Assembly: GCF_000723205.1 (NCBI RefSeq)
Contig: NZ_HG315671.1
Coordinates: 2,515,351-2,579,350, forward strand
Source of the DNA: Formosa agariphila KMM 3901
Lineage (GTDB): Bacteria > Bacteroidota > Bacteroidia > Flavobacteriales > Flavobacteriaceae
DNA length: 64,000 nt
Reading direction: 5' to 3'
Shown here piece after piece: positions 21,602 through 60,080 of the stretch; position 1 is the stretch's first letter; every line of letters starts with the position of its first letter. The notes below the pieces were generated by a model. It was not told the origin of the DNA and did no database searches. It was given only the letters and a program-made list of their open reading frames with translations. Position numbers and translations under genes: made by a program.

Positions 21602-21658
21602 GTTTAGTTCTTGTCTAGTCTAGTTTTGAATCTAATTAACATGAAGTCCGTAATATTA
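21602..21658 (+). promoter_or_regulatory. operator GTTTAGTTCTTGTCTAGT plus 31-nt-spaced promoter octamer for GH16
   Basis: The operator (21602-21619) is a direct repeat, GTTTAGT and GTCTAGT with starts 11 bp apart, matching the consensus GTNTAGTTYWWGTCTAGT also present upstream of three other units. Thirty-one nt downstream lies TAATATTA (21651-21658), a weak version of TAnnTTTG at the same spacing as at the other three sites. A second GTCTAGT overlaps at 21618-21624, and TAGTTTTG at 21621-21628 is a rival promoter box. The operator ends 66 nt before the GH16 start codon. Confidence 0.65.
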
Positions 21659-21685
21659 AAGTTCTAACAATTTTAAATTAAACTT

Positions 21686-23071
21686 ATGAAACAAAATTTC
21701 GTTTTAACCTCTATTTCAATACTTTCTTTTGTCTCTATACATGCTCAAGATTGGAAAGATATTCCTATTCCTGCCGATCCTGGAATAGATAAAATTTGGG
21801 AACTTCAAGAAAATGTTTCAGATGATTTTAATTACAATTTCGATGCGTCTTCAGAAAAATCTAATTTCGGAGATAATAAATGGTATAATTTCTATCATAA
21901 CAGTTGGGATGGACCAGGAACAACCTATTGGAAATATAACCACGTATGGGTCGATGGATCTGATGTAAATATTAGAGCTTCCCGATGGAATAAAACTAAT
22001 GAAGCCGCTCCTGTCTCCCCTTGGCCAAATAAAATGAACAAGCCAAACGACGGGATTAATGCTGCATGTATCACTTCTAATAATACAGTAGTATTTCCTG
22101 TATTTGTAGAAGCTAGTGTAAGTGTTGCAAACATTTCACTAGCTACAGATATTTGGTTATTAAGTCCTGACGACACTCAAGAAATAGACATAATGGAATG
22201 CTATGGTGGCGCCGATAGCAACAATGCATTCTTTGCAAAAGACATCCATTTAAGCCATCATTCATTTATCCGTCAGCCTCTTCAAGATTACCAACCTAGA
22301 GGAAAAAACACCTGGTACACACGTAGCGACATCACAACATCTTGGGGTGATTATTGCTGGAACGATGGTGAAAGGAAATATGTTCAGATTGGTGTAAATT
22401 GGATTGGCCCAAAACACTTTGAATATTATGTAGATGGCGATTTAGTTCGAGTACTTTACGATAAAGCTAGTGCAACAAAAAAAGGAAGTACTTGGTATTA
22501 TACGTATCCTAGTATGACCAATGGAAAGTTAGATTTTGATGCAAACGGCTATCAAACAGAAAATGAATATGCTACAGAAACGTCATATAATTTTAAAACC
22601 TTAGAAGCCGCTAGTAACACTTCTATAGTAAGTATTATAGATCCTTACAATTATCAAAATGGCAACGGATTTACCAAACCTTTAGATATTATTATAAATG
22701 TAGAATCTCAAAATTGGCATGTAGATGCAGGGCGAACTCCTAATGATGATTTATTAAACGACCCAAGTAAAAATACTATGAAAGTAGATTGGCTACGAGT
22801 TTATAAACCCTCGAACAAATTAAACATTGAAACGCCTAATTCAGGAAGCTCAATTAAAATCTATCCAAATCCTGCAGATAAAGAACTACACATTAAGAGT
22901 GAACACAAGCTAGACAGTATAAAAATATATAATGCCTTAGGCGTTTTAGTTTATCAACAATCAAAACCTGTAGAAATCATTCCTCTAAACCATTTAAATA
23001 CTGGTGTCTATTTTACTTCTATAACGTCTAATAAATCAACAATTATTAAGCGTATTATTGTTCAGCATTAA
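21686..23071 (+). CDS. GH16 beta-agarase-type enzyme with type IX secretion C-terminal domain
   Basis: Secreted endo-galactanase of 461 aa. A signal peptide (MKQNFVLTSISILSFVSIHAQ) is followed by a GH16 domain. The catalytic motif TQEIDIMECYGG lies near residue 167, and DIHLSHHSFIRQPLQDYQP near 190 resembles the substrate-cleft segment of GH16 beta-agarases. The fold ends with MKVDWLRVYKPSNK near 375. The last ~75 residues (IKIYPNPADKELHI to IIKRIIVQH) are a type A Por/T9SS C-terminal sorting domain, so the enzyme should be exported and released or attached at the cell surface. An operator-like 18-mer lies upstream at 21602-21619. The hairpin at 23083-23117 ends the transcript. Beta-agarase is the best call; porphyranase is possible. 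Confidence 0.9.
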   Translation: MKQNFVLTSISILSFVSIHAQDWKDIPIPADPGIDKIWELQENVSDDFNYNFDASSEKSNFGDNKWYNFYHNSWDGPGTTYWKYNHVWVDGSDVNIRASRWNKTNEAAPVSPWPNKMNKPNDGINAACITSNNTVVFPVFVEASVSVANISLATDIWLLSPDDTQEIDIMECYGGADSNNAFFAKDIHLSHHSFIRQPLQDYQPRGKNTWYTRSDITTSWGDYCWNDGERKYVQIGVNWIGPKHFEYYVDGDLVRVLYDKASATKKGSTWYYTYPSMTNGKLDFDANGYQTENEYATETSYNFKTLEAASNTSIVSIIDPYNYQNGNGFTKPLDIIINVESQNWHVDAGRTPNDDLLNDPSKNTMKVDWLRVYKPSNKLNIETPNSGSSIKIYPNPADKELHIKSEHKLDSIKIYNALGVLVYQQSKPVEIIPLNHLNTGVYFTSITSNKSTIIKRIIVQH

Positions 23072-23082
23072 TAGAAAACTAT

Positions 23083-23117
23083 AATCGGCACCTCATTATA
23101 TGATATAGGTGTCGATT
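23083..23117. terminator. bidirectional terminator between GH16 and IclR genes
   Basis: Arms AATCGGCACCT (23083-23093) and AGGTGTCGATT (23107-23117) pair over 11 positions with one G-T pair and a 13-nt loop. It fills the gap between two convergent stop codons and can serve both directions. Confidence 0.7.
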
Positions 23118-23127
23118 TACTCCTGGA

Positions 23128-23880
23128 TTAAACACCTAATATATTGTTTATTAATGCTGCCGTTTTTTGTAACTGTTGAATAAAGAAATCTCTAGATTTA
23201 TTATTTTCAGAAAGCGCAGTCAAACTAGAGATCGCAATTGAAGCATAAATTCCAGAAGACACATCACCTATTGCAATCGCTATATCAGTAACACCTAAAG
23301 TCAACTCACTCTCTTTAAGATCATAACCTGTTTTTTTTATATGCTGAAGCGCCTGCAATAATTCATTCTGATTTTTAAGATCTAATTCGTTAAAATCTTT
23401 AGATTTTTTTAAAATAGAATCACGTTCATTCTCATTTAGATTAGCTAATAAAACTCGTCCAGAAGTTGTTTTTATCAATGGAAACAAACTCCCTTCTTCT
23501 ACAGAAAGCGATACAGGGCCAGGACTTTTTGTTTGAGATACTACCATAAGTTTATCAAATTGTATAATACTCATATGACAAGCTTGATGTGTAGCATTTG
23601 ACAAGTCTTCCATAAACGGTTTTGCCACACGCAACAAACCATCAATAGGACTATGCGTATGTGATAAATGATATAATTTAAGCGTTAAACTATATTTTCC
23701 TGAAGTACTCTTACTAATATAGCCTCGGTCCTCAAGACAAGCTAACATTCGATAAATCTCATTTGCTGTTTTATCTAAACCTAAGGAAATTTCTATCTGA
23801 GATTGAGGTATAGATTTTTCCGATAAATATTCTATGATATCTAAACCCTTTTCAAGGGCAGGTGTTTTGTATTTACTCAT
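23128..23880 (-). CDS. IclR-family transcriptional regulator
   Basis: A 250-aa DNA-binding regulator. The N-terminal winged helix-turn-helix spans roughly residues 7-65 (ALEKGLDIIEYLSEKSIPQ, LGLDKTANEIYRMLACLEDRGYI). The C-terminal effector-binding domain has VARPF-like RVAKPFMEDLSNAT, FPLIKTTSGRVLLANL and the closing GIYASIAISSLT. IclR proteins usually respond to small acids, aldehydes or sugar-acid intermediates and control adjacent catabolic genes. It is divergent from the GH2 gene at 23980 and the block that follows, and the 99-bp spacer contains an elaborate dyad (23902-23956) suited to a dimer or tetramer. I infer that it controls itself and the plus-strand genes; its ligand may be an intermediate of the 26605-32323 pathway. 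Confidence 0.92.
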   Translation of the reverse strand: MSKYKTPALEKGLDIIEYLSEKSIPQSQIEISLGLDKTANEIYRMLACLEDRGYISKSTSGKYSLTLKLYHLSHTHSPIDGLLRVAKPFMEDLSNATHQACHMSIIQFDKLMVVSQTKSPGPVSLSVEEGSLFPLIKTTSGRVLLANLNENERDSILKKSKDFNELDLKNQNELLQALQHIKKTGYDLKESELTLGVTDIAIAIGDVSSGIYASIAISSLTALSENNKSRDFFIQQLQKTAALINNILGV

Positions 23881-23901
23881 AAAACAAAATTAAACATTTA
23901 A

Positions 23902-23956
23902 ATACAAATATCCAATTTCATATTTAAACTTTAAATATAAATTTATATATTTGTAT
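23902..23956. promoter_or_regulatory. concentric dyad in the IclR/GH2 divergent promoter
   Basis: Two nested perfect inverted repeats share the same centre at base 23929: an inner one, ATATTTAAA-C-TTTAAATAT (23920-23938), and an outer pair, ATACAAATAT (23902-23911) with ATATTTGTAT (23947-23956). The right outer arm overlaps TATATTTG (23946-23953), a full TAnnTTTG box for the GH2 side. The left outer arm gives GATATTTG on the minus strand for the IclR side. This fits an autoregulatory IclR operator covering two back-to-back promoters. Confidence 0.65.
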
Positions 23957-23979
23957 ATGAATACAACAAACTATCTATT

Positions 23980-26517
23980 ATGAATAAAAAAATATTAAAA
24001 TTACTAACCAATATCACACTAGGACTATTAGTGTCATTAAGTGTATTCGCACAGCCTAATACAACTTTGTCTCTTGAAGATTCAAATCAGCAAATAATGG
24101 ATTTGAGCGGAACAAGATGGCGATTTAAAATGATGGCTCCTGGCGAAGGAGTAAAAAAAGGACTACATAAATTACCCGCAGAGGATATTGAAACATTAGT
24201 TTGGAACAATGCAAAAGTACCGGGCGATGTTTATACAGATCTTTGGAAGGCTGGAGTAATCGAAGATCCTCATTTTGGAAGAAATAGTGTTAAAGCTCAA
24301 TGGGTACAACAGTACGAATGGTGGTACGCATTACAATTTAGTGTTACTGAAGGTGTAGAAAACCAAATGGTCAACCTTGTTTTTGAAGGTGTAGATTATG
24401 GCTGCGAAGTTTGGTTAAACGGGCATTATTTAGGCAAACATGAAGGTGTATTTTCTAAATTTTCATTTAATGTAAACGAATATCTACGAATTCATAAATC
24501 CGATTTTCTTAAAGGTAGAAATATGTTAGTTGTAAAACTAGACACTCCACCACAGGTAAACGCCTTTGTTGCTGGAAAAAAAACACCTTGGTTTGGAGAT
24601 TATTGGAGAGACATTACTCCAATAGGGATTGTAGCTCCAGTAAAATTAGTACGTACTGGAAAAGTAAGGTTTAAAGATGTATATGCTAATAATACTATAA
24701 ATAAAGATGGTTCAGCCGATGTTAATCTTGAGATTACCGTTGAGAACACCAATAATATTGCTAAAGAATTTTCTTTTGAAGCGGCGCTTAATGGTAAAAA
24801 CTTCAAAATGAAAGAGAAAAAAGTCACTTTTAAAAAAACCATTCAACCTGGAACTCATAAAATAATTCAGAAAATACATTTAGAAGATGCCAAGTTATGG
24901 TGGCCTTGGGACTTAGGTGACCAGAATTTATACATCGCTAAAATAGCCATTAAGGATGGTAAGTTAAATCAAGACATCAACGAAACTACTTTCGGTATTC
25001 GTGAAGTGACTTCAAAATGGAATCCTGGTTTTATAAAAGATGTAGATGTTACCTTCCCTCGTTCAACTTATATCAATGGAAAATTTCATTTTATTCGTTC
25101 TGCATGTTGGGGAGGACCACCAAACATTTTTGTTGGTAGAACTGAAAAAAGCGACTACAAAGAATTAATCCGTTTGGCCAAAGAAATGAATATGAACAAT
25201 ATTCGAATTTTTGGATGGCACCCACCAGAAGTCCCTGAGTTTTATCAATATTGTGACGAAATGGGGATGACTGTTTGGCAAGACATGATTCCATTAGGTA
25301 CAGGTAATATTCCTTCTGATGAAAAAAACCTAGCCGAAATATTTAACGAAGGAGTTAAAGTAGTTGTGGAACGTAGAAATCACCCGTCCCTAATTATGAT
25401 GGAAGGTGGTGAAGAAATGATGTTTCGTACTCGTGACCCAAAATTCGGACGTGAATTTTTAGAACGTTTAGGCGATTCTTTACAAGCTTATGTAAACTTA
25501 CCTTATGTTCCAGATTCACCAATGACTGATCATGTTGGACAACAAGCAGGCTTTAAACCAAAAGAAGCGGTTCATGCTTTACGTTACTTTTACGATATGG
25601 GGCAATGGCTACATGAAGATTGGTACCAAACCAAAGCAGATGGTTACCCTATAGTACCTGAATTCGCGATTACTTCTGTACCTTCTGTAGAAAGTTTAAA
25701 GAAATTTATTCCAAAGGACGAAATGTGGCCTCCAGGCTTAAGTTGGGGACATCATTGGGCAGATTTAACCCGTTTACGCATGCAAAATTGGGATGTCTTT
25801 GGTAGTGAAATGAAAGGATCTTTAGAAGAATTTGTAAATGCAACACAAGATGCACAAGGGATAATTTTCCAAAATGGAATTGAACATTTCCGCCGAGACA
25901 AACCAAGTTTAAGCGGTATTGCATTGTGTCATTACATCACTTACGGACCAGATATGAAATGGGCTATTGTGGACAATTACAGAAAACCTAAAAACTCATA
26001 TTATTTTGTTCAAAAAGCTTATCAACCACTTTTAGTGAATTTTGAATTTAAAAAACGTCGTTGGGACACTAAAGAAGCCTTTGTAGGTAACATATGGGTC
26101 ATTAATGATTTGTATAAAACTTTCAAAGATTGTAATGTAAAGTTTGAAATGAAAGACGATTCTGGAAACGTAATCGCAAGCAAAAATTTCTCAATTGACA
26201 AGATTGAAGAAAACAGTGCTAAATCATTCTTTCCTATCAACGAAAAAGTTTTAAAATCGGTGAAATCTAAGTTTTTTGTCAACCTAGAATTAACAGATAA
26301 AAGCGGCAAAACAATTTCTAAAAATGATTACTTCTTCTTAATTGGTGATCAAAAAGAAGCAACGAAACATTTTAACGCTTGGAAAGAAGAACGTCTTAAA
26401 TCTGAAAACGAAAATGGCGGATATGGTTCATATTACCACTTCTTTAAAGAGTTTACAGGTGAAGACGGAAAACGTTACGAGAGTGAAACTCAAATCCCAA
26501 GAGCTATAGGATTTTAA
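23980..26517 (+). CDS. GH2 beta-mannosidase/exo-glucosaminidase-like glycosidase
   Basis: An 845-aa exported protein (signal peptide to about residue 25, LLVSLSVFAQ) of the GH2 subgroup that includes beta-mannosidases. Hallmarks: LSGTRWRFKMM and VPGDVYTDLWKAGVIEDPHFG near residues 40-95, FEGVDYGCEVWLNGHYLG near 135, and FIRSACWGGPP and NNIRIFGWHPPEVPEFYQYCDEMG near 370-430. The acid/base region reads LIMMEGGEEMMF near 470, where many relatives have a Gly-Asn-Glu type motif; here the residue before the presumed Glu is another Glu. The nucleophile region VPEFAITSVPS near 560 looks normal. It is divergent from the IclR gene and precedes the CoA-transferase block, with a terminator-like hairpin between. 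Specificity is uncertain; a beta-linked algal sugar is likely. Confidence 0.82.
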   Translation: MNKKILKLLTNITLGLLVSLSVFAQPNTTLSLEDSNQQIMDLSGTRWRFKMMAPGEGVKKGLHKLPAEDIETLVWNNAKVPGDVYTDLWKAGVIEDPHFGRNSVKAQWVQQYEWWYALQFSVTEGVENQMVNLVFEGVDYGCEVWLNGHYLGKHEGVFSKFSFNVNEYLRIHKSDFLKGRNMLVVKLDTPPQVNAFVAGKKTPWFGDYWRDITPIGIVAPVKLVRTGKVRFKDVYANNTINKDGSADVNLEITVENTNNIAKEFSFEAALNGKNFKMKEKKVTFKKTIQPGTHKIIQKIHLEDAKLWWPWDLGDQNLYIAKIAIKDGKLNQDINETTFGIREVTSKWNPGFIKDVDVTFPRSTYINGKFHFIRSACWGGPPNIFVGRTEKSDYKELIRLAKEMNMNNIRIFGWHPPEVPEFYQYCDEMGMTVWQDMIPLGTGNIPSDEKNLAEIFNEGVKVVVERRNHPSLIMMEGGEEMMFRTRDPKFGREFLERLGDSLQAYVNLPYVPDSPMTDHVGQQAGFKPKEAVHALRYFYDMGQWLHEDWYQTKADGYPIVPEFAITSVPSVESLKKFIPKDEMWPPGLSWGHHWADLTRLRMQNWDVFGSEMKGSLEEFVNATQDAQGIIFQNGIEHFRRDKPSLSGIALCHYITYGPDMKWAIVDNYRKPKNSYYFVQKAYQPLLVNFEFKKRRWDTKEAFVGNIWVINDLYKTFKDCNVKFEMKDDSGNVIASKNFSIDKIEENSAKSFFPINEKVLKSVKSKFFVNLELTDKSGKTISKNDYFFLIGDQKEATKHFNAWKEERLKSENENGGYGSYYHFFKEFTGEDGKRYESETQIPRAIGF

Positions 26518-26526
26518 TATTAAAAT

Positions 26527-26593
26527 AAGCGGTCTGGAAAATATTATAAATGTTAACCGGAAAGGTTTACACACTTTTCAGACCAGCTTTTTA
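26527..26593 (+). terminator. terminator or attenuator between GH2 and the CoA-transferase block
   Basis: AAGC-GGTCTG (26527-26536) pairs with CAGACC-A-GCTT (26579-26589) with a one-base bulge and is followed by a T-run. A small inner hairpin, AACC (26555-26558) with GGTT (26564-26567), lies in the loop. It starts 9 nt past the GH2 stop and ends just ahead of the next start codon at 26605. Termination here would make expression of the next five genes lower than, or independent of, GH2. Confidence 0.6.
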
Positions 26594-26604
26594 TTCCTTC
26601 AAAA

Positions 26605-27756
26605 ATGAAACAAGAAAAAATACAATTAAAAGGGATTACCTGGGATCATAGTCGAGGTTTTACATCGGCAGTTGCCACGGCACAACGTTTCCACGAGTTA
26701 AATCCGAATATAGAAATCACATGGGAAAAACGCTCGTTACAAGCTTTTGCCGATGAGCCAATTGATAAGCTTGCAGCACGCTACGATTTACTAATTATAG
26801 ACCACCCATGGGCAGGTTTTGCAGCCCGAACTGGCGTTATTATCCCCTTAAACGAACATTTACCAAAAGCATTTTTAGATGACCAAGCAGCGAATTCCGT
26901 AGGAAAATCACACGAAAGTTATTGTTTTGATGGGTACCAAAGTGCATTAGCTATTGATGCAGCCACACCCGTTGCGGCTAGCAGACCAGATTTATTAAAC
27001 AGACTAGGAAAAAAATTACCCCAAACTTGGGACGATTTAATCGCTTTAGCAAAAGATGGCTTAGTAGCCATTCCGGGAATTCCTCAAGACACCCTAATGA
27101 GTTTTTATATGATTTGTTGCACTCTTGGTGAAGATGTGGCACTTACAAAAGACTATTTTGTTTCAGAAAGCATCGGGATAAAAGCATTAAACATCCTTAG
27201 AGATTTAGGACAATATATTAATCCGTCTTGCTACGATATGAACCCGATTAAGGTTTACGAAGCCATGACCCGCACCGATAAATTTGCCTATTCGCCATTT
27301 GCTTACGGCTACACAAATTACTCGAAACGCGGTTATGCCGATTATATTTTAAAATACCATGACACGGTTGCTTTGGAAGGCGAACATTTAATTACCACTT
27401 TAGGCGGTACCGGTTTAGCCATTTCTTCTAGCTCGAAACACAAAGAAGCTGCTTTAGCTTACGCGGAATATATGGCGTCTCCTAAAATTCAAAAAACGGT
27501 ATTTTTTGATTACGGCGGGCAACCAGGACACAGAGAAGCTTGGTTAGATACTACGAATAATTTCAATGCATTAGATTATTTTAAAGATACTTTACCAACT
27601 TTAGATAGAGCCTTTTTAAGACCACGCTACCATGGGCACATGTATTTTCAAGATAATGCTGGAGCACCCATTCGTGAATTCATGAAAAACGGTGGCGATG
27701 CGAAACACGTTTTAAATGGGCTAAATAACTTGTATATTGAATCTCTAAAAATATAA
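26605..27756 (+). CDS. family 1 solute-binding-protein fold without signal peptide
   Basis: A 383-aa protein that looks like an ABC-transporter sugar-binding protein (SBP_bac_1 type): ATAQRFHELNPNIEITW near the N-terminus, LPQTWDDLIALAKDG near 145, and TTLGGTGLAISSSSKHKEAALAYAEYMASP near 270-300. The N-terminus (MKQEKIQLKGITWDHSRGF) is polar with no signal peptide or lipobox, and no permease or ATPase gene is nearby. It is therefore probably cytoplasmic, unlike true transporter components. It is followed 4 nt later by the first CoA-transferase gene, so the products probably work together. It may bind or deliver the pathway substrate, act as a sensor, or have gained catalytic function; I cannot tell which. 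Family assignment is firm, role is unknown. Confidence 0.75.
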   Translation: MKQEKIQLKGITWDHSRGFTSAVATAQRFHELNPNIEITWEKRSLQAFADEPIDKLAARYDLLIIDHPWAGFAARTGVIIPLNEHLPKAFLDDQAANSVGKSHESYCFDGYQSALAIDAATPVAASRPDLLNRLGKKLPQTWDDLIALAKDGLVAIPGIPQDTLMSFYMICCTLGEDVALTKDYFVSESIGIKALNILRDLGQYINPSCYDMNPIKVYEAMTRTDKFAYSPFAYGYTNYSKRGYADYILKYHDTVALEGEHLITTLGGTGLAISSSSKHKEAALAYAEYMASPKIQKTVFFDYGGQPGHREAWLDTTNNFNALDYFKDTLPTLDRAFLRPRYHGHMYFQDNAGAPIREFMKNGGDAKHVLNGLNNLYIESLKI

Positions 27757-27760
27757 TATT

Positions 27761-28909
27761 ATGGACTTGCCGTTAAAAGGTATTACAGTATTGGAGTTTT
27801 CTCAGTTTATGGCAGGTCCATCAGCAGGGTTAAAAATGGCCGATTTAGGCGCGCGGGTTATTAAAATTGAACGTCCAGGCACTGGAGAAGCAGGGCGACA
27901 AATTGCTCTTAAAAACATATTTATTGATGAGAGCTCTATGGTGTTTCATACGGCAAACCGGAATAAACAATCTTATGCAGCCAATTTAAAAGATCCAGAA
28001 GATTTAGAAAAAATTAAAAAATTAATCGCTCAGGCGGATGTTATGACCCATAATTTCCGCCCAGGCGTTATGGAGAAAATAGGCTTGGATTACGATACCG
28101 TTTCTGCAATTAATAATAAAATAATATACGGCGTCGTATCTGGATATGGCCCTGTAGGTCCTTGGGCAAAAAAACCAGGACAAGATTTATTAATTCAGTC
28201 CTTATCTGGATTTGTTAATCTAACAGGAAACAAAGCAGATGACCCCACAGCCACAGGACTAGCAACTTCTGATATTTTTACGGGCGTACATTTAGTACAA
28301 GGAATTTTAGCATCACTTATTGCAAGAAACCGTACTGGTAAAGGAGCAAAAGTGGAAGTGAGTTTATTAGAATCTACTTTAGATATTCAGTTTGAATTGT
28401 TAACAACGTATCTGAACGATGGTGAAAAACTACCAAAAAGAGCTAAAAAAGGAAATGCTCATGTGTATTTAGATGCACCTTATGGCATTTACCAAACAAA
28501 AGATGGCCACATAAGTATTGCGCTAACACCCTTAGATGAATTAGTAAAATCGATAAATTTAAGACTTCCTGAAGCTTTTCAAAATCCTAGTGTTTGGTAT
28601 ACAAAACGCGATGACATCATGGCGTATTTACAAGAACAGCTCATCAAAGAAACCTCAGCACATTGGTTATCAATTTTTGAATCTTTAGATTTTAGAGTTT
28701 CAGAGGTATTCGATTATAAAACGCTTTTAAATCACGAAGGCTACAAAGTACTTCAGATGGATCAAGAAGTTGAAACGTCCGATGGTATTTCAATGAAAAC
28801 CACGCGTTGCCCCATCCGAATTGATGGAAACCGCATTTTCAATAAAAAATCGGCACCAAAAGTAGGCGAAGACAATGCGTTAATAGAAAAAGAATTTAAT
28901 CTAAGTTAA
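27761..28909 (+). CDS. class III (CaiB/BaiF) CoA-transferase, first paralogue
   Basis: A 382-aa family III CoA-transferase, which moves CoA between carboxylic acids. The Rossmann-like start is LPLKGITVLEFSQFMAGPSA, followed by ADLGARVIKIERPG near residue 30 and the CoA-site region TANRNKQSYAANLKDPED near 65. The expected catalytic Asp lies in GLATSDIFTGVHLVQG near 170, and a TGKGAKVEVSLLES segment follows, as in CaiB and formyl-CoA transferase. No signal peptide, hence cytoplasmic. Only 2 nt separate it from a second, clearly related gene, so the two may form a heteromer, as in the paired class III transferases of benzylsuccinate activation or of malate CoA transfer. The acid substrate is unknown. 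Confidence 0.88.
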   Translation: MDLPLKGITVLEFSQFMAGPSAGLKMADLGARVIKIERPGTGEAGRQIALKNIFIDESSMVFHTANRNKQSYAANLKDPEDLEKIKKLIAQADVMTHNFRPGVMEKIGLDYDTVSAINNKIIYGVVSGYGPVGPWAKKPGQDLLIQSLSGFVNLTGNKADDPTATGLATSDIFTGVHLVQGILASLIARNRTGKGAKVEVSLLESTLDIQFELLTTYLNDGEKLPKRAKKGNAHVYLDAPYGIYQTKDGHISIALTPLDELVKSINLRLPEAFQNPSVWYTKRDDIMAYLQEQLIKETSAHWLSIFESLDFRVSEVFDYKTLLNHEGYKVLQMDQEVETSDGISMKTTRCPIRIDGNRIFNKKSAPKVGEDNALIEKEFNLS

Positions 28910-28911
28910 TC

Positions 28912-30057
28912 ATGCAAAAACCATTAGAAGGCATATTAGTTGTAGACTTTAGCCAGTATTTATCTGGACCTTCAGCAAGTTTAAGATTGACTGATTTAGG
29001 TGCAAGAGTTATCAAAATAGAAAAACCAGAAACTGGAGATTTGTGTCGTGGATTGCATTTTTCGAATCTGGTCATGAATGGTGAATCTTCCATGTTTCAT
29101 GCCATCAACAGAAATAAGCAAAGTTACGCAGCTAACATGAAAGCTGATGATGAACGCGAAAAAGTCTATCAATTAATTCGTCAAGCCGATGTTTTAATTC
29201 ATAATTTTAGACCAGGGGTTGTCGAAAAATTAGGCATTGATTTTGAAACCATAAAAACTATAAATCCTGAAATTGTTTATGCTGAATTATCAGGTTATGG
29301 CAAAGAAGGCGTTTGGAAAGATAAACCCGGACTAGATTTATTATTACAATCCCTTTCAGGATTAACACAGTTAAACGGAAACGATGGCGCAGGCCCTGTC
29401 CCTATTGGATTAGCTGTGGTAGATATTTTATCTGGTGCCCATTTAGCCCAAGGTATTTTAGCCTGTTTACACAGAAAAGTAACTACGGGTAAAGGTGGTC
29501 GCGTTGAAGTGAGTATGTTGGAATCTGCCTTAGAATATCAATTTGAATCGATTACCTGTTTCTTTAGAGACGGCGGACAACCAACAGTACGACCAAAAAG
29601 CAATTCGGCACACGCTTATTTGGGCGCGCCATACGGTGTTTACGCGACTAAAAATGGTGCAATTGCTTTAGCCATGGGATCTATTCCTTTTATTGGAGGC
29701 TTAATAGGTTGCGAAGCGTTATCAAAATACGAAACGCCAGAAAGTTGGTTCAATCAACGAGATGAAATTAAATACATCCTTGCTAAACACCTCGCTACAA
29801 AAGATACTAAAATTTGGTTGGCCGTTTTAGAACCTGCCGATATTTGGTGTGCCGAGATCATGAATTGGAAAACACTCATGGATCAAGAAGCTTTTAAAAT
29901 TTTAGAGATGATTCAGGAAGTAAACATGTCCGATGGCTACACCTATAAAACCACACGTTGCCCCATTCAAATTAATGGCGAATGGTTAACGTCGGAAATT
30001 GGGAGTCCCGTTTTAGGCGAACACAATGAAAAAATCAATAAAGAATTAGCATCGTAA
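28912..30057 (+). CDS. class III (CaiB/BaiF) CoA-transferase, second paralogue
   Basis: A 381-aa protein that aligns along its whole length with its upstream neighbour: KPLEGILVVDFSQYLSGPSA, LTDLGARVIKIEKPETG, INRNKQSYAANMKADDE, and the presumed catalytic Asp in GLAVVDILSGAHLAQG near residue 170. Both copies therefore keep the active-site Asp, unlike some heteromeric pairs in which one subunit is inactive. The spacing of 2 nt to the previous gene and 12 nt to the crotonase gene points to tight co-expression. Tandem duplication followed by divergence is the likely origin. Either the two form one enzyme or they act on different acids, for example activating the substrate and recycling CoA from the product. 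Confidence 0.88.
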   Translation: MQKPLEGILVVDFSQYLSGPSASLRLTDLGARVIKIEKPETGDLCRGLHFSNLVMNGESSMFHAINRNKQSYAANMKADDEREKVYQLIRQADVLIHNFRPGVVEKLGIDFETIKTINPEIVYAELSGYGKEGVWKDKPGLDLLLQSLSGLTQLNGNDGAGPVPIGLAVVDILSGAHLAQGILACLHRKVTTGKGGRVEVSMLESALEYQFESITCFFRDGGQPTVRPKSNSAHAYLGAPYGVYATKNGAIALAMGSIPFIGGLIGCEALSKYETPESWFNQRDEIKYILAKHLATKDTKIWLAVLEPADIWCAEIMNWKTLMDQEAFKILEMIQEVNMSDGYTYKTTRCPIQINGEWLTSEIGSPVLGEHNEKINKELAS

Positions 30058-30069
30058 TAACTGAATTTT

Positions 30070-30852: not shown

Positions 30853-30871
30853 CTAATAAAACATACTAATA

Positions 30872-33429: not shown

Positions 33430-33556
33430 ACTATATAAAATTAAAAGTGAAACTAATGAACATCGTTCTCTAATGAATAAATGCTTAAAAAACCCCAAAA
33501 GATTATAAAAATCGATTGGGGTTAAAAACAAACATACAATTAAAAAACAAGATTTT

Positions 33557-48966: not shown

Positions 48967-48982
48967 AGAAATAGCATTTTAA

Positions 48983-50437: not shown

Positions 50438-50455
50438 AATTAATCTTTTTAATTA

Positions 50456-51859: not shown

Positions 51860-51881
51860 ATTTATTTAATTATGGAATGAA

Positions 51882-52652: not shown

Positions 52653-52673
52653 AATCGTATGTTTTATTTTATA

Positions 52674-53690
52674 TTATAATTGACAATCCATTAATACTTT
52701 TAATCCATCAGGATTACTATCGATATTTTCGAAAACTTGCTGAATATTACTCAATGGTTGTACATCGGTAATCATGTCTTCAAAAGGCAATTCGTTAGCT
52801 GTGATGAGTTCGATAGATTTTTCATAATCTTCTTTTTCATACACACGTGCACCAATTAAGCTTAATTCTTTCCAAAAGAACTTAAATAAATCAACTGGCT
52901 TTTTTTCACCATGAATAGCTACCATTACTATACGGCCGCGAATTCCAGCCACCTCACACATGACATCCAAAGCGGGTTGTACACCTGCAACTTCAAATAC
53001 CACATCTGCTCTACGATTTTCTGTTTTACTTTTTACATAGTCTACTAAATCGATATCTAACGGACTTACAGCATCAAAACCTAAAGCTTTAGCTTTTTCA
53101 ATACGCTTTGGATTGACTTCAGAAATAATAACTTGAGCGCCAACTTCTTTAGCAACCATCGCTACTAATAATCCGATTGGCCCACCACCTAAAACCACAG
53201 CTGTTTCACCTTCTACTAAGCCACTTCTGCGTACATCATGCGTTGCTACTGATAATGGTTCTATTAAAGCCGCCAATTTTAAATCGGTTGTTTCTTTTAG
53301 TTTATGTAATACAAAGGTTGGTACATTCCAATATTGTTGCATTGCACCTTCACTATCTATTCCAATAAATTTTAATTCTTCACAAATGTGATTAAAACCT
53401 TTATCTGAAGCTTTTACTTTACGATCATCTAACGGACGAACGACTACTTTATCGCCAATAGCATAATCTGTAACGCCATCGCCTACAGCATCAATAACAC
53501 CCGACATTTCATGACCAATGGTTACCGGAATCTTTACACGTTTATCCATCATACCATGATAAATATGTACATCTGTACCGCAAACCCCTGCATACGCCAC
53601 TTTAATTCGTACTTCATTAGGCGCTGGTGTCTCTATCTCTTTTTCTATAACAGTGAAAGTGTTATTACCTTCATAGTGTGTTGCTTTCAT
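52674..53690 (-). CDS. zinc-type (MDR) alcohol/polyol dehydrogenase
   Basis: A 338-aa medium-chain dehydrogenase. Catalytic zinc region GVCGTDVHIYHG near residue 35 and GHEMSGVIDAVGDGV near 60; Rossmann motif VLGGGPIGLLVAMVAKEVGAQVI near 165. The segment that normally carries the four structural-zinc cysteines (RPLDDRKVKASDKGFNHICEE near 85-110) has only one Cys, so the structural zinc is probably absent. It resembles galactitol/threonine/sorbitol-type dehydrogenases. Placed between the SDR and the first gene (GH2) of the AHG operon, it may catalyse one of the two redox steps that convert 2-keto-3-deoxy-L-galactonate to 2-keto-3-deoxy-D-gluconate. Confidence 0.87.
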   Translation of the reverse strand: MKATHYEGNNTFTVIEKEIETPAPNEVRIKVAYAGVCGTDVHIYHGMMDKRVKIPVTIGHEMSGVIDAVGDGVTDYAIGDKVVVRPLDDRKVKASDKGFNHICEELKFIGIDSEGAMQQYWNVPTFVLHKLKETTDLKLAALIEPLSVATHDVRRSGLVEGETAVVLGGGPIGLLVAMVAKEVGAQVIISEVNPKRIEKAKALGFDAVSPLDIDLVDYVKSKTENRRADVVFEVAGVQPALDVMCEVAGIRGRIVMVAIHGEKKPVDLFKFFWKELSLIGARVYEKEDYEKSIELITANELPFEDMITDVQPLSNIQQVFENIDSNPDGLKVLMDCQL

Positions 53691-53705
53691 ATTAACTTAT
53701 TTATT

Positions 53706-56243
53706 TTAATTACTTTTTATTGAAATTACAGTATCCTTTATCCCTTTACTTTTTGCCGTTACCTGTATTGTACCAGGTGAACCTGTTGCTTGAATTACTA
53801 ATAAAGTTTTTCCATTATGTGTTATGTTTTTATTAGATTGAAAAGGCTGAACACTTTTTTTCCACCCATTATCTACACCCAATAATTTTGCAGGACCGGT
53901 AATTTCATATGTAATCTCACGATTATCTATAGAAACAGGATTTCCTTTATCATCCTTTAATTGTACTACGATATTTGAAACATCATAATGATTTGCTTTA
54001 AGTAAAGTATTGTCTGGTATCATTTGAATTTCAGATGTTTTTGATGCCGTAGTAAGTATAGATTCTGTTTGAACTCCACCTTTTCTACCCCTAGCAATCA
54101 ATTCACCTTCTACGAAAGGCACACCCCATTTATAGATATGATCTTGAAAATCTTTTAAATATTTTTTACCTAAAGACTTTTCATTTAAAAACAATTCAAT
54201 TTCATCACAATTAGAATAGATTTCGATAGAAACCATTTCTCCTTTTTTATAGTTCCAATGCGTATTTACATCTTGCCATTCCCAAAGAGCTTGTTTCCAT
54301 TTTTCAGGGTCTTTAGCTACTATTTCTCCTTTATCATTAATTTTATTTATAGACTTATCTATTGTTTGTGTAGCGATATGAATCATTGGCTTATCTGTCC
54401 ACAGTGACTTCATCATATAATAGGATCCTTTTGGAAAACCTGCTGTTGTTAATAAACCTGAAGGCTGAACACGTACTGGCCAAGGCTCTCTAATTTCTCC
54501 CATATAATCGACTCCCGTCCAAAGAAATGTTCCAGAAATAAACGGGCGTTCCATGACTGCTTTCCACTCATGAAACTGAGGAAGACTTTCTGTACCCATA
54601 ATTGGTTTATCTGGATAATTTTCATGTCCATAATCATATAAGACACTTCTGTAACTATACCCTATTACATCTAAAGCATCTGAATACCCAGATAAATGGC
54701 TCACAGAAGGTAAGATCATGTTAGCTGTGATAGGACGTGTAGTATCTAAAGATTTTGCCCATCGCGATAATTTATTTGCAGTTTTACCTATATCGTATTT
54801 AGCTTTTGGTAAAACTTCTAATTGTTTTTTAATTTGTTCTGGGGTAAAAGGTGGCTCAGACCAAAAGTAACTTCCATTCCAATCTAGGTTATTAAAAAAA
54901 CCTGTCGCATCTGCGTTTCTAGGATAGGTCCATTCAATTTCATTTCCTATACTCCACTGAATTATTGAAGGGTGATTACGGTGACTTAACATTACATTTG
55001 TTAAATCTTTCTGAGCCCATTCCTGAAAATGTTCGCCATAACCATTTGTTATATAATCAACCGATTGTTGATTCATATTATAACGCTTATCTTTTGGGTT
55101 ATCCCATTCGTCGAAGAACTCATCTTGAACTAAAAAGCCCATTTCATCACATAAATCTAAAAATTCAGTTGAACCTGGATGATGTGAAATTCGTATTGCA
55201 TTTGCACCTCCATCTTTTAGAATTTGAAGACGTCTCTTCCAAACACCTTTAGGAACTGCAGTACCTACAAGTCCACCATCTTGGTGCAAACACAATCCCT
55301 TTATTTTTATATGTTCTTCATTCAAGAAAAAACCTTTATTAACATCAAATTCAATTGATCGTATTCCAAAAGGTGTTTCAACGCGATCTATTACTGTGTT
55401 ATTTTTAGTGATAATAGTTACCGCTTTATAACGGTTAGGAGAGCTTATACTCCATAGCTGAGGATTGGCCACAGTTAATTGTTGAGTAATCTCTCCTTTA
55501 GACTTAGCATTAACAGAAACTTCTGTGCTTGTCTTAGTAACTTCTTTATTATTTGCATCTAAGACTTTAGAGGTAACTACTACTTTTTCATTGGTATCAA
55601 ATTCATTATTAAAACTTATATCAACTTGTACTTCAGACTTCTCTTTAGAAACCACAGGTGTCGTAATAAATGTGCCCCATATAGGAACATGTAATTTATT
55701 AGTTGTTATAAGTTTTACATTTCTATAAATCCCTGCTCCAGTATACCAACGACTATCAGCAAATCGGCTATGATCTATTTTAACAATAAGGGTGTTAGCT
55801 TTTCCGTTAGTATTTAAATATGGTGTTAAATCGTAGTAAAAAGGAGAATATCCATACGGGTGGAAACCCAGTTTATTTCCATTTAAATACACTTCAGAAT
55901 TATTATAAACACCATCAAATAAAATATATGTTAGCTCATTATCTTTTGAACTAACTTGAAATTCTTTTTTATAATACCCATACCCTACACTAGGTATAAA
56001 TCCAGTTGCTTTAGCATCTTTCCCTAAAGATTCATCAAAATCGTTTTCGACAACCCAGTCATGTGGTAGATTTACTTTTTTATAGTTAGTATCAAGAATA
56101 CTATTGTAGTCAACATCTGTTTCACTTAAATAAAAACTCCAATCTAGATTAAAATCTAATTCCCTATTTAATTCACTTGTATTTTGCGAAAAAGACAAAA
56201 ATTGAATCAAACCAATAAAAACAACACAAATTATATTCCTCAT
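53706..56243 (-). CDS. GH2 beta-galactosidase-type glycosidase, second copy
   Basis: Exo-acting GH2 enzyme. The frame opens at 56267, but the Met at 56243 begins a signal peptide ([20 protein letters not shown]), so that start is preferred (845 aa). Motifs: [12 protein letters not shown] near residue 58, [17 protein letters not shown] near 105, [13 protein letters not shown] near 165, acid/base [14 protein letters not shown] near 428, and nucleophile [15 protein letters not shown] near 550, followed by [11 protein letters not shown]. The C-terminal Ig-like domains contain [12 protein letters not shown]. It is a paralogue of the 12731-15268 protein. It is the first gene of an 11-gene minus-strand operon whose gaps are all 9-41 nt. 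An operator-like 18-mer lies at 56304-56321. Likely releases galactose from agar or porphyran oligosaccharides. Confidence 0.9.
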
Positions 56244-56264
56244 TTTTAACAAATTATTAGAATA

Positions 56265-56321
56265 CAAAATTGGTTGATATTATTAATAATAAGTCTTTTT
56301 CAAACTAGACTAGAACTATAC
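56265..56321 (-). promoter_or_regulatory. operator GTATAGTTCTAGTCTAGT with 31-nt-spaced CAATTTTG for the 11-gene operon
   Basis: On the minus strand the operator (56321 down to 56304) holds GTATAGT and GTCTAGT with starts 11 bp apart. Exactly 31 nt further is CAATTTTG (56272 down to 56265), one mismatch from TAnnTTTG, 21 nt ahead of the preferred GH2 start at 56243. This supports the later start, because the upstream Met at 56267 would overlap the promoter box. Confidence 0.68.
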
Positions 56322-57045
56322 AATACCTGTTTAGCTCTCTATTTAACTACAAATACACTGAACAATTCATTAAACCTTGCTCTTTTATGGGAAATTTAAA
56401 AGCTAAGTATTTGGAAATATTTTTACGCTAGTTCATATAGAATTCTCGTAAGTATTATGCAATAGATTGCATTTTAAATCAATAATAAGTCATGTTTATT
56501 GTTAGCTTGAAGAACATAAATTAACTATTCAAAAACATAAAATTACATGGATAAAAACTGAAAGTAGTGCAGTAATAACAAGTAAAACCTCCTATTCCTT
56601 CAAAAAATTATCTAGACAAATAAAAGATACCAATCACTACTCTCTCTAATTAACTTATCATCAATACGAGCTACAGAAAATATAAAAATTATTAATTCAT
56701 CTATTTACACAATGATATTTTACTAAATTCTTAGTATTTATTATATTTTTTAATAATTTAACACTAGACAATAACTGAACATTATAAACTATTTAACAGC
56801 TTAACAACATAACAACCACACTACACCCATAAAACATAACAACCTACAATACAACAACTTAACACCACAAATACCAACCTAAATAACAACAAAACCGTAT
56901 TAAAACTAGACAAAACATATCTTATCTACTAAACCAAAACCTAAAAATCACTATTTATTTTATTTACATTTGAAAAACAAGCAAACCAAACTTTAGTACA
57001 TGTCTTACTGTACAAAAGAAACTAACATTCAATTCATTAAACCAA
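56322..57045. other. spacer upstream of the TPR regulator, with a 96-nt G-free tract
   Basis: No gene is visible. From about 56801 to 56896 the plus strand contains no G and is rich in AAC repeats. A degenerate operator copy (GTTCAGTTATTGTCTAGT on the minus strand, 56780-56763) and a lone ACTAGAC (56905-56911) are present. A TACATTTG box lies at 56965-56972, 73 nt ahead of the regulator start codon, with a small hairpin GTACA/TGTAC just after it. Confidence 0.5.
56965..56972 (+). promoter_or_regulatory. candidate -7 box (TACATTTG) for the TPR regulator
   Basis: Full match to TAnnTTTG, 73 nt before the start codon at 57046. No -33 match at the usual distance, which suits activator dependence. 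The half-site ACTAGAC lies 53 nt upstream of it. Confidence 0.4.
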
Positions 57046-58656
57046 ATGAAACTATTTAAACTTTTAGCTATTTTTTTATGCACCTATTTTCAATCACAAT
57101 ATGTATTAAGTCAAGAGCATATAGAACGAGATTCGTTTTATAAGAAAGCAGAAATATTGAAATTTGATAAGCCTGATACTGCTGCATTTTATTTTCAAAA
57201 AAGTGTAAATTTTCAACTTCAAAAAAAAGACACATTAGCCGCAATTAATAGTTTAAAAGAGTTATCATTCTTATATGCACACAATGTTAATTATGGAAAA
57301 TCATATGATGGATATTGGGACGCACTGTTGTTAGCTGATAAATCTAAAGATTCTGTTTCTATAGCTAGTATTTATAATCAGTTGGGATGGCTATATAGCT
57401 TTTATAAAAGAGATACAGAAGCACTAAAATACTTTAACAAATCTTTAGTTATCAATAAAAAACTAAAAATTGCCCCCTTAGACTACAATACTAAATTAAG
57501 AAGTGATTATTTTTCAATAGCTGTTTTTCACAGAGACAATGCACAATTTGAATTGGCTCGAAAATATCTTGATAGTAGTAACATTTATCACAAGAAAATG
57601 ACAAACACTACTCCGTATTTTGCAAATTCAGAACTGGGATATATATTATGTAAAGAAGGAAAATTTTCTGAAGGATTAGAGTTGCTTAAAGTTTCTGAAT
57701 CTTATTTCGAAAAGGCAGACCCTTCGTATTTAACAATGATATATTATTTGTTAGGTGAAGTATATCAAGATTTAAATAATTTTGAATTGAGTGAAAATTA
57801 TTTAAAAAAATCATTAGAATTTGGCGAGAAATACCATACTCATAGTAATTATGCTCCTAGAAATTATCTATCCCTTTCGGAACTGTATTATAAGAACAAT
57901 AAACCTAAAGAAGCGTATGAAGCATTACTAGAGGCCAACGAACTTAATAATAATATTTTTGGAAGCCGTAGTGAGACCAATCAACATTTACTAGAAATTA
58001 AGGATGATTTTAGAGTAGAAAAACAGAAACAAGAAGCACTAATAAAAGAAAAGCGTTTAGCAGAACTAGAGCATGAAGACAGAATCTGGCTACTTAAAAC
58101 CATCTTATTAATTGTTGTTGTCTTATTTGTATCACTCTTTGCTGGTCTATTTGTAAGAAACTTAAGGATTAAACATAAATCTGAAAAATTAAACTTAAAA
58201 AAACAGCAAGAAATTGAACGTAAAAGACAACATGATATTTTAGAATTAAAAAATAAACAACTAGCTTCTTCTGCATTACAACTTATTGAAAAGGATGAAT
58301 TCTTAGAAAGTATAAACATAAAATTATCAAAACAAAATAGTCAAATAGACACCAACGTTATTAAACGGATGGTGAAAAGTATTCAAGGAAATACCGCAAG
58401 TAACTGGAAAGAGTTCGAGGCACGTTTTACTAATATCAATCAAAGTTTTTATGCTAATCTTACTGATAAATTTCCTAAGTTAAGTCAAACAGACCAGAAA
58501 CTATGTGCTCTAATAAAGCTTAATTTTTCAAGTAAAGAAATGGCTTCTATTTTAGGAATTAGTGTAGAAAGTGTTCACACATCAAGATATCGATTACGAA
58601 AAAAATTAGGTTTAGAACGTAATGACAATCTTACCGATTTTATCAATGAATTCTAA
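57046..58656 (+). CDS. TPR sensor with one membrane segment and LuxR-type helix-turn-helix
   Basis: A 536-aa one-component regulator. The N-terminus is a signal-peptide-like segment (LLAIFLCTYFQSQYVLSQ), followed by TPR-type helices (ALKYFNKSLVINKKL near residue 125, MIYYLLGEVYQDLNNFELSENYLKKSLEFG near 230-260). A single membrane helix (LLKTILLIVVVLFVSLFAGLFV) spans about 348-370, then a Lys/Glu-rich coiled coil. The C-terminal DNA-binding part (LSQTDQKLCALIKLNFSSKEMASILGISVESVHTSRYRLRKKLGL) is a LuxR/GerE-like HTH. The TPR part should lie outside the cytoplasm and the HTH inside. No hybrid two-component regulator or ECF sigma/anti-sigma pair occurs in the window, so this protein is the best in-window candidate to act on the 18-bp operators. 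That link is inference. Confidence 0.85.
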   Translation: MKLFKLLAIFLCTYFQSQYVLSQEHIERDSFYKKAEILKFDKPDTAAFYFQKSVNFQLQKKDTLAAINSLKELSFLYAHNVNYGKSYDGYWDALLLADKSKDSVSIASIYNQLGWLYSFYKRDTEALKYFNKSLVINKKLKIAPLDYNTKLRSDYFSIAVFHRDNAQFELARKYLDSSNIYHKKMTNTTPYFANSELGYILCKEGKFSEGLELLKVSESYFEKADPSYLTMIYYLLGEVYQDLNNFELSENYLKKSLEFGEKYHTHSNYAPRNYLSLSELYYKNNKPKEAYEALLEANELNNNIFGSRSETNQHLLEIKDDFRVEKQKQEALIKEKRLAELEHEDRIWLLKTILLIVVVLFVSLFAGLFVRNLRIKHKSEKLNLKKQQEIERKRQHDILELKNKQLASSALQLIEKDEFLESINIKLSKQNSQIDTNVIKRMVKSIQGNTASNWKEFEARFTNINQSFYANLTDKFPKLSQTDQKLCALIKLNFSSKEMASILGISVESVHTSRYRLRKKLGLERNDNLTDFINEF

Positions 58657-58666
58657 ACCTAATGGC

Positions 58667-58710
58667 AACTTGGAAGTTAGACTAATTATTTTTGTTCTAA
58701 TTTCCAAGTT
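58667..58710. terminator. 15-bp stem-loop between convergent genes, reaching into the GH16 coding end
   Basis: AACTTGGAAGTTAGA (58667-58681) pairs with TCTAATTTCCAAGTT (58696-58710): 14 Watson-Crick pairs plus one G-T, loop of 14 nt with a T-run. It starts 10 nt past the stop codon of the TPR regulator. The right arm is made of the last codons of the convergent GH16 gene, so coding and termination share the same bases. Confidence 0.7.
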
Positions 58711-59978
58711 CGTACCCAATCAATTTGCATCGTATTAATAGTATTATCATTTAAATCGGATTTAGGAGGAAGTCCACCCAACCAATTATCTGATGATGTC
58801 CATAAATCAAAAATAATTTCTAAATCTCTTGTAAATTCGCGTTCTGCATACACGTTTCCGGACCTATCGTGACCAACTTCAACACTTCCAGCTGGTTCTC
58901 CATCTAAATAAAACTGAATGTGTTTAGAATCTTTCCACCATACACCAAACGTGTGATAGCCTTCGTTCCACTTTATTCCTTTATTCGGATTAACATCTAG
59001 TAAATTACTTTGATTAAAATTATCTTCATCTCTTATAACTCCTGGAGTTTTACTTGAATCAGCTTGAAAATACTGAGAATTCATTTGCAATGGAAAATCT
59101 GGTTGACAATCACAAGATGGTTTAGAATTATTTTCTATAATATCAATTTCATCACGATTGTAAGAATCTCCATTATTTAACCAATAGGTATTATATGCAG
59201 AAATATGTGCCGCTTTAATTCGTGCTTCGGTATACATTGGATAGCTTACTTTTTCTCTTGAATGAATTCTAGCTGTTTGAAACCAACGCTCTTCAGGATT
59301 ATTTTCGTTAAGAGTTGCTTTAATCCATAAATTACCTTCTGAAACACCAGAATTAATATTTGACGTCGACATATATACAGGAACTCCATAATTCCATGTC
59401 GATTTAAACCATTTGTTACTATCCCAAGTTTCAAATTCGTCTGACATGCTTTCGAATTTTACCCAATTCATATCTTCTGGCGTGGTATTATTAATAGAAA
59501 CAAAAGAAGGAAAGTTGGGGTCTATATTATTAAAATCTTCCGCTGTTGGCCCTTTATCTATTGCATTTATTGTAACAGTAACTATTGCTGAATCTGAATC
59601 TCCATCCTTGTCTTTTAATAAGTACGAGAAACTATCTTGCCCATTAAAATCGACATTGGGAATGTACTCAAAAACACCATCAGCAATTTCTGAAACAGAA
59701 CCATTATTCGCATTAGTTAACAAGCTATAATCATCTCCATCTCCGCCATCTTCTCCAATATTATCATTAGCAGAGACCTTTATTTGATTAGCTTCTCCGG
59801 CTTTACTGTCTTCATCTACAATAAGAATATCATCAATAGCAGTTGGCTTAAAATTTTTAATCTCAGAATCATTATCAGAATCTGAATTACTACAATAACT
59901 AAGGCAAATACATAAAAATGCCGAGAATACGAATTGAATCATTTTGTTTTTAATCATTTTATATCTGTTTTTAATCAA
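58686..59978 (-). CDS. GH16 endo-galactanase lipoprotein with cadherin-like N-terminal domain
   Basis: A 430-aa GH16 enzyme. The lipoprotein signal ends FLCICLSYCSNSDSDND; any of three Met codons (59978, 59957, 59942) could start it. Residues ~40-135 form a cadherin/VCBS-like module (DDILIVDEDSKAG, YIPNVDFNGQDSFSYLLKDKDGDSD). The GH16 domain follows, with catalytic motif DEIDIIENNS near residue 275, then WNEGYHTFGVWWKDSKHIQFYLDG and closing strand MQIDWVRTWKLEQK. The sequence around the active site differs from the two beta-agarase-like proteins (no HLSHH segment), which favours another specificity such as porphyran or a carrageenan-type galactan. It is a single-gene unit with the 18-bp operator at 60063-60080. 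Confidence 0.85.
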   Translation of the reverse strand: MIKNRYKMIKNKMIQFVFSAFLCICLSYCSNSDSDNDSEIKNFKPTAIDDILIVDEDSKAGEANQIKVSANDNIGEDGGDGDDYSLLTNANNGSVSEIADGVFEYIPNVDFNGQDSFSYLLKDKDGDSDSAIVTVTINAIDKGPTAEDFNNIDPNFPSFVSINNTTPEDMNWVKFESMSDEFETWDSNKWFKSTWNYGVPVYMSTSNINSGVSEGNLWIKATLNENNPEERWFQTARIHSREKVSYPMYTEARIKAAHISAYNTYWLNNGDSYNRDEIDIIENNSKPSCDCQPDFPLQMNSQYFQADSSKTPGVIRDEDNFNQSNLLDVNPNKGIKWNEGYHTFGVWWKDSKHIQFYLDGEPAGSVEVGHDRSGNVYAEREFTRDLEIIFDLWTSSDNWLGGLPPKSDLNDNTINTMQIDWVRTWKLEQK

Positions 59979-60023
59979 AAAACTATAATTAAGATTTTTC
60001 TCAATTTTTCATTTTATAATTAT

Positions 60024-60080
60024 CAAACTTATATAAACATCATTGAATTAAGGAGCTAAGCCACTAGACTTAAACTATAC
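60024..60080 (-). promoter_or_regulatory. operator GTATAGTTTAAGTCTAGT with 31-nt-spaced TAAGTTTG for GH16
   Basis: On the minus strand, GTATAGT and GTCTAGT (60080 down to 60063) are followed after exactly 31 nt by TAAGTTTG (60031 down to 60024), a full TAnnTTTG match. This is the best promoter box of the four-site set; it lies 45 nt ahead of the first possible start codon. The rest of the 59979-60283 spacer shows only a 12-bp palindrome AGAAGTACTTCT at 60266-60277 and no gene. Confidence 0.72.

Follow-up and report, generated by a model that had tools for sequence, protein, structure and literature searches.

In a 64,000-nucleotide (nt) stretch of the Formosa agariphila KMM 3901 genome, referred to here as the window (G000:C1:2515351-2579350; the source genome is a single contig of 4.23 Mb), four genes or operons are preceded by the same 18-bp tandem element. 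The genes behind these four elements are agar genes, and the element is very probably, judging from sequence comparison, an operator read by a membrane-spanning one-component activator whose gene lies at positions 57046-58656 of the same window. Computation directly showed the motif with its spacing and gene context, how it co-occurs with the proposed regulator (P0001), and that the operator covaries with the helix-turn-helix (HTH) domain of this regulator.

An earlier sequence-only reading of this DNA had described one tandem repeat at four sites, always facing its gene and exactly 31 nt away from an octamer, and both statements hold. The pattern GTNTAGTTYWWGTCTAGT is matched with 0 mismatches at all four 18-bp sites, each oriented towards its gene (Table 1), while the octamers at gap 31 reach 20 of 24 matches to TAnnTTTG; the runner-up common gap within 0-89 nt gives 16, and none of 5000 shuffles reaches 20 at any common gap. 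The octamers were said to match or approach TAnnTTTG; more exactly, they match it at 4, 5, 5, and 6 of 6 positions. Under a model of independent and identically distributed letters, 0.0097 perfect matches to the pattern would be expected genome-wide; the pattern was derived from the four window sites themselves, so independent tests outweigh this figure. Operator 2 is flanked on both sides by weaker half-sites in 11-bp phase (40109 and 40131), the secondary tandem site at 56346-56363 has a counterpart at equal distance in a congener (L198:1031), and the further site at 56763-56780 has counterparts in four Tamlana loci. Congener G004, whose regulator is 85% identical, keeps the four sites with their gaps, the 56763-type site, and one more. 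This extra operator (L196:16302, G004:C1:699801; minus strand) precedes a 680-aa open reading frame (ORF) and is followed at gap 31 by CAAATTTA; no counterpart of it was found in the window.

The scan of related loci proposed by the sequence-only reading showed that motif and spacing recur. Seventy-seven loci from named genomes were gathered via an alignment of seven proteins combining tetratricopeptide repeats (TPR) with an HTH, using the best 80 of 131 relatives, and they contain 101 motif copies at up to 2 mismatches, against 4 for the backward pattern. Column counts of these copies give TGTNYAGTTNWWGTCTAGT. Of the 98 distinct copies, 92 lie outside ORFs of at least 200 aa. When TAnnTTTG with at most 1 mismatch is counted by gap, 48 of the 98 copies have it at 31 nt, 16 at 32, and 6 at 30, the remaining gaps from 0 to 89 having a mean of 1.5 and a maximum of 6; the exact box at gap 31 is present in 8 of 98. 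The strict spacing of 31 nt claimed earlier therefore stands as the main peak, to be widened to a tolerance of 30-32 nt that had been missed. Within this range, 62 of 81 intergenic non-Tamlana sites carry the box with at most 1 mismatch (perfect in 6 of 81), and by sequence these sites have the -7 box of Bacteroidota sigma-A promoters, TAnnTTTG. The -33 element of such promoters is TTG or TTTG. Here, a -33 TTTG (spacers of 17-23) is conserved in only 5 of 70 sites, which fits an activator-dependent promoter. In Flavobacterium psychrophilum, the -7 box lies at -12 to -5 (PMC9723704; this and the other papers cited by accession are drawn on as excerpts), and if the same position is taken here, the operator would lie at about -61 to -44. 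Counted from the first half-site, extra half-sites occur at offsets such as -31, -41/-42, +41/+42, and +52/+53, which are close to whole helical turns.

Three tests start from the motif rather than from the regulator: a motif search of family genomes, a search for the B-type motif described below, and an inspection of the genes behind the motif in six relatives. Across 299 family genomes, with a close relative of P0001 defined by a best E-value of at most 1e-90, the motif (at most 1 mismatch) was found in 19 of 20 genomes with such a relative and in 29 of 279 without one (Fisher p 4e-16). This cut was chosen after the results had been seen, where the best E-value per genome jumps from 8.8e-113 to 5.7e-55; with a looser cut of 1e-40, the counts are 20 of 23 and 28 of 276. 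At up to 1 mismatch there are 55 motif matches versus 5 backward ones in the 20 regulator genomes, and 31 versus about 96 (hand count) in the others, where the backward control may overstate chance because the patterns differ in their frequency of CTAG-type words. In six regulator-bearing relatives, 10 of 15 sites found motif-first precede a GH2, agarase, SusC, GH117-like, sugar transporter, or alcohol dehydrogenase gene, and 0 of 15 lie inside a long ORF; the check covers 15 of the 17 sites listed there, and 3 of the 10 agar-type genes (L036, L051, and L055) were named by likeness to window genes, without a domain scan. In genomes without a close regulator relative, 5 of 11 sites fall within ORFs, and the other six stand before a pentapeptide-repeat protein, before two proteins left unscanned, or before no gene start. 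As for the related loci, 69 of 76 first downstream proteins were scanned after exclusion of 18 of 98 sites (in an ORF or with no start within 700 nt). They comprise 24 GH2 proteins with the window's domain set, 13 proteins with SusC-type plug domains, 10 GH43-like proteins (by a Pfam model that also catches GH117), and 3 each of GH16, IclR, and TPR proteins.

The operator varies together with the DNA-binding domain of the regulator. Fifteen loci carry regulators with KLGF in the HTH (B type), and the remaining 62 are A loci. Fourteen of the 15 B loci contain the B-type operator GTTCAGTTTWWRTTSATK (at most 1 mismatch), in most of them between -146 and -164 relative to the start, and a box such as CATATTTG follows it after 30-32 nt. 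A-type copies number 89 in the A loci (spread over 52 of them) and 2 in the B loci, B-type copies 3 and 26, respectively, and the reversed A and B patterns have 0 matches in the 77 loci. Because the B pattern was derived from the B loci themselves, this count is partly circular for B, and the motif-first test is the search of the 299 genomes: B regulators occur in 4 of them, with a B motif 143-151 bp before that gene in 4 of 4, and of 4 exact B motifs 3 stand before B regulators, with 1-mismatch background matches in 32 other genomes. Clade B is nested within A with support of 100/100, and because its nearest A relatives (L104, L122, and L124) retain the A operator, the switch from A to B occurred once on the tree. 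Some genomes carry one regulator of each type (L118/L137, L091/L150, and L121/L141). In Zobellia russellii, a B-type regulator adjoins a GH43/GH117-like gene and SusD. We consider it somewhat probable that the agar loci of several Bacteroidota families have in common an old family of membrane-tethered TPR-HTH activators, which reads an 11-bp tandem operator at a fixed position of about -61 to -44, and that a sub-clade rewrote only the second half-site (GTCTAGT to ATTSATT), some genomes keeping two paralogues with separate operators.

The sequence-only reading had missed P0001, the likely regulator, as well as the further sites and the recoded operator of the sub-clade. In P0001, the segment RNLRIKHK comes after a hydrophobic helix, with the positive side inside, and leads on to a long helix and the C-terminal HTH; this topology was read from the sequence and a structure model (mean pLDDT 84, pTM 0.57). 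Its nearest named relatives, among the best 80 of 131, are from Tamlana strains with 81-83% identity; Tamlana agarivorans is now Pseudotamlana agarivorans, of the Flavobacteriaceae. The NCBIfam family BT3442 was rejected as a family assignment (40 bits against a cut-off of 940), and the lone paper listed under that name deals with a MACPF structure. The earlier suggestion of an activator binding as a tandem dimer at a fixed distance from a weak promoter is supported by the comparison, and we infer binding, activation, dimer geometry, and the sugar signal as follows. The N-terminal TPR superhelix would lie in the periplasm, joined through one transmembrane helix to the LuxR-like HTH in the cytoplasmic part, which would comprise about residues 372-536. 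Two HTH domains would sit head to tail on the same face of the DNA, contacting GTNNAGT and GTCTAGT one helical turn (11 bp) apart. From about -61 to -44, ahead of the promoter core, they would recruit RNA polymerase to a weak TAnnTTTG-like -7 box lacking a -33 element. The signal is likely to be an agar-breakdown product in the periplasm, and the activator would turn on two agarases and the operons SusCD-agarase and GH2-GH117, probably together with a single secreted protein encoded far away.

This last gene emerged from the whole-genome scan, in which the pattern has 4 places with 0 mismatches (the window four only), 1 place with 1 mismatch, and 4 places with 2. A sequence profile was built from 67 sites, none from Tamlana loci; they remained from 75 sites with an octamer at up to 2 mismatches, among 81 non-Tamlana intergenic sites, after 8 duplicates or weak sites had been dropped by hand. 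Its genome ranking, which rests on 150 scored of 11041 first-look candidates, places 56304, 56763, 40120, 3051939, and 21602 at ranks 1 to 5. Site 3051939 lies 472 kb away, and the gene after it encodes a 244-aa secreted protein whose match to a type IX secretion system (T9SS) tail is below threshold. Relatives of this protein, 60% identical over the part compared, occur in two Flavobacterium loci, in both of which they start 103 nt past the motif and about 9.5 kb from the regulator gene, and by this comparison the distant gene probably belongs to the same regulon. Three other matches were not counted as members: rank 6 (3650219) is inside a sulfatase ORF, site 12545 (3 mismatches) has only a good second half, and 2399101 (2399101-2399149, L170) is weak, with 16.3 bits and an octamer-like word at gap 42. 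The last of these has a TAATTTCG-like box at that gap and is followed, after about 110 bp, by a SusC-type gene at a great distance from the window.

Several observations weigh against the reading of the element as the operator of P0001. Most loci were picked through the regulator, which makes the nearness of motif and regulator partly a matter of design. The whole-genome check proposed earlier gives perfect matches at the four window sites alone, but at up to 3 mismatches the 112 genome matches compare with 114 for the backward pattern, which is chance level. Site 60063 (17.5 bits in the window scan) is missing from the list of 150 scored genome candidates, and site 56763-56780 has no clear -7 box at gap 31. 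The claim of one galactan regulon is favoured in that the first genes are largely agar-type, and is qualified by the fifth genomic site (3051939), which lacks TAnnTTTG at gap 31 and stands before an uncharacterised secreted protein. Among the motif-first sites in regulator genomes, 5 of 15 have no gene start within 720 nt; one regulator genome of the 20 (G223) lacks the motif, and a locus's own motif (at most 1 mismatch) is missing in 10 of 62 A loci and in 1 of 15 B loci, Dyadobacter L135 being among those without it. The single A-to-B switch on the tree is one data point. Finally, the HTH of P0001 scores 19.8 bits (E 6e-4) against GerE (PF00196), below the cut-off of 23.5.

A chance artefact is ruled out by the genome scan, the recurrence in 77 loci, the gap peak, the co-occurrence, and the shuffles, and the alternatives that deserve attention concern which protein reads the site and how. 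The reader could be another agar-locus regulator, such as the IclR-type protein encoded at 23128-23880, or an AraC- or OmpR-type protein encoded elsewhere, with the TPR protein merely accompanying agar genes, which we regard as unlikely. IclR-type genes are indeed found in the same locus and follow motif sites in 3 of 69 cases. PhoB boxes are likewise 7-4-7 direct repeats. The same form is known from operators of Streptomyces antibiotic regulatory proteins (SARPs; PMC5930380). However, an IclR relative is present in 10 of 299 genomes, including 7 of the 20 with the regulator, and its distribution does not follow that of the motif, which occurs in 12 of 13 regulator genomes without IclR and is absent from two genomes (G011 and G205) that have IclR and no close TPR relative; IclR is thus not supported as the cognate regulator, while no search was made for AraC- and OmpR-type proteins. 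The operator type, in turn, tracks the HTH type of the TPR protein.

It is improbable that the TPR protein binds these sites but mainly represses, or acts on its own gene only, with activation coming from elsewhere. In favour of this, the 56763-type site lacks a clear -7 box and is oriented away from the gene of the regulator, while B loci such as L110, L121, L137, L150, and L153 have two more half-sites (TGTTCAGT and TGTCTAGT-like) at a spacing of about 22 bp that face the regulator's own start. These half-sites may mean autoregulation, which may exist besides activation. A repressor is opposed by the position of the sites upstream of the promoter core, not over it, which together with the rarely conserved -33 element is an activator layout. 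Very improbable is the notion that the element is part of a promoter for an alternative sigma factor of the extracytoplasmic function (ECF) type: fixed-distance elements before SusC and enzyme genes would be compatible with it, since ECF sigma factors control some such loci (PMC3878776), but a -35 element is ruled out on distance, since 31 nt is too wide a gap before the -7-like box. This box, moreover, looks like the TAnnTTTG of the primary sigma factor, and the form of the tandem changes along with the TPR protein's HTH.

We read the proposed activator as working like SusR or MalT, that is, as a sensor-HTH one-component activator with direct-repeat sites, here with a compact operator. SusR is a membrane activator sensing periplasmic maltose (PMC3878776), and SusR-like proteins (Bacteroides SusR and SusR2) share with P0001 a signal peptide, a TPR-like periplasmic part, one transmembrane helix, a C-terminal cytoplasmic HTH, and SusC nearby; their C-terminal HTH has been described as unlike other known DNA-binding domains (PMC3878776). 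The comparison used two DUF6377 proteins beside SusC in GH66 loci (L192:16902-18569 and L194:924-2579), not SusR itself, and found remote profile similarity to the P0001 family over 363 columns (hhalign 96.6%, E 6e-10), through the C-terminal HTH. P0001 has no match to DUF6377 (PF19904) at E up to 1, while the two GH66-locus proteins score 313 and 301 bits, so plain SusR-family membership is rejected and distant kinship remains. For SusR, the predicted motifs are direct repeats whose centres lie 67 or 77 bp apart (PMC3878776), in contrast to 11 bp here.

MalT of Escherichia coli resembles P0001 in joining a TPR-type sensor part to a LuxR-type HTH. It uses direct-repeat sites at fixed promoter positions. 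P0001 differs in having no ATPase part and in being membrane-anchored: no ATPase family matched, and MalT-TPR (PF17874) gave 14.9 bits against a cut-off of 45. The TPR part of the P0001 model finds MalT domain III (1hz4) at rank 31 among many TPR folds, with a TM-score of 0.58 by target. SARPs use a different DNA-binding fold. They differ further as soluble actinobacterial proteins with the heptamer CGGCAAG, and are similar in that activators such as PimR bind heptameric direct repeats with 4-nt spacers cooperatively (PMC5930380). The hybrid two-component systems (HTCS) of polysaccharide utilization loci (PULs) likewise govern SusCD and enzyme operons, and the agarose locus of Bacteroides uniformis is presumed to be regulated by one (PMC5849685); in P0001, neither a kinase nor a receiver nor an AraC-type HTH was matched. 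CgrA of Zobellia, an AraC-type protein of the Flavobacteriaceae, is also a positive regulator of a red-algal galactan locus, but belongs to another protein family, and the excerpt of PMC5698469 names no operator for it.

For the agar loci of marine Bacteroidota, regulators have so far been unnamed in the excerpts consulted on this subject. In Zobellia galactanivorans, the cluster ZGAL_4657-4669, with a GH117 and two transcriptional regulators, is agar-induced (PMC5613140; not equated with the Z. russellii locus), and no operator for it is named in the excerpt. Among titles and abstract starts of the open-access literature, none was recognisable as dealing with this operator or with agar-locus regulators of the TPR-LuxR kind, and regulator terms are absent from PMC10163077. 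A regulator-operator pair with fixed promoter geometry would make agar regulons, including genes far from the locus, predictable from sequence. The shared activator family with its rewritten half-site, if true, would allow DNA recognition to be read as a code in a class of transmembrane PUL regulators for which sites have otherwise been predicted only, and with very long spacing. The A-to-B operator switch would be a direct test case for DNA recognition by membrane-anchored regulators.

Table 1. Operators, -7 octamers, target genes, and proposed regulator (window positions).
Feature	Position	Strand	Remarks
Operator 1 (GTTTAGT-TCTT-GTCTAGT)	21602-21619	+	Pattern match, profile match
-7 octamer TAATATTA, 31 nt past operator 1	21651-21658	+	Identical octamer and gap in congener locus L196
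Target 1: beta-agarase D-like GH16 with T9SS tail	21686-23071	+	Match to 4asm, E 5.5e-88
Operator 2	40120-40137	-	Pattern and profile match
-7 octamer TAAATTAG, 31 nt past operator 2	40081-40088	-	Same in congener locus L197
Target 2 operon: SusC (36891-39965), SusD (35142-36869), PKD protein (33557-35131), agarase-like GH16 (32467-33531)	32467-39965	-	
Operator 3	56304-56321	-	Genome-wide top profile match
-7 octamer CAATTTTG, 31 nt past operator 3	56265-56272	-	CATTTTTG at same gap in congener locus L198
Target 3: 11-gene operon, GH2 to GH117	40691-56267	-	
Operator 4	60063-60080	-	Pattern match; 17.5 bits in profile scan of window
-7 octamer TAAGTTTG, 31 nt past operator 4	60024-60031	-	TAATTTTG at same gap in congener locus L198
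Target 4: beta-agarase C-like GH16	58686-59978	-	Match to 6hy3, E 7.6e-97
Weaker secondary tandem site, 11.3 bits	56346-56363	-	Exactly 42 bp (four helical turns) upstream of operator 3
Further site (GTTCAGT-TATT-GTCTAGT), between regulator gene and operator 3	56763-56780	-	Profile rank 2
Proposed regulator P0001: signal peptide, TPR repeats, transmembrane helix, LuxR-like HTH	57046-58656	+	

The target 3 operon also holds sulfatases, a GH3, dehydrogenases, an MR_MLE-type enzyme, an epimerase, and a RhaT-type transporter, and its GH2 is likely to start at ATG 56242 rather than at TTG 56267 of the ORF list, because the -7 octamer overlaps the latter. The agar-locus block at 23128-32323 contains the IclR regulator, a mannosidase-like GH2, a solute-binding protein, two family-III CoA-transferases, an enoyl-CoA hydratase, and an aldehyde dehydrogenase; the operator was not found among the genes of this block, and congener locus L196 has the same gene set. 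A Mutator-family transposase at 18540-19736 adjoins an alpha-L-fucosidase gene. Directly upstream of operator 4, and sharing its orientation, lies the gene of a 1092-aa FG-GAP/ASPIC-UnbV repeat protein (60284-63562).

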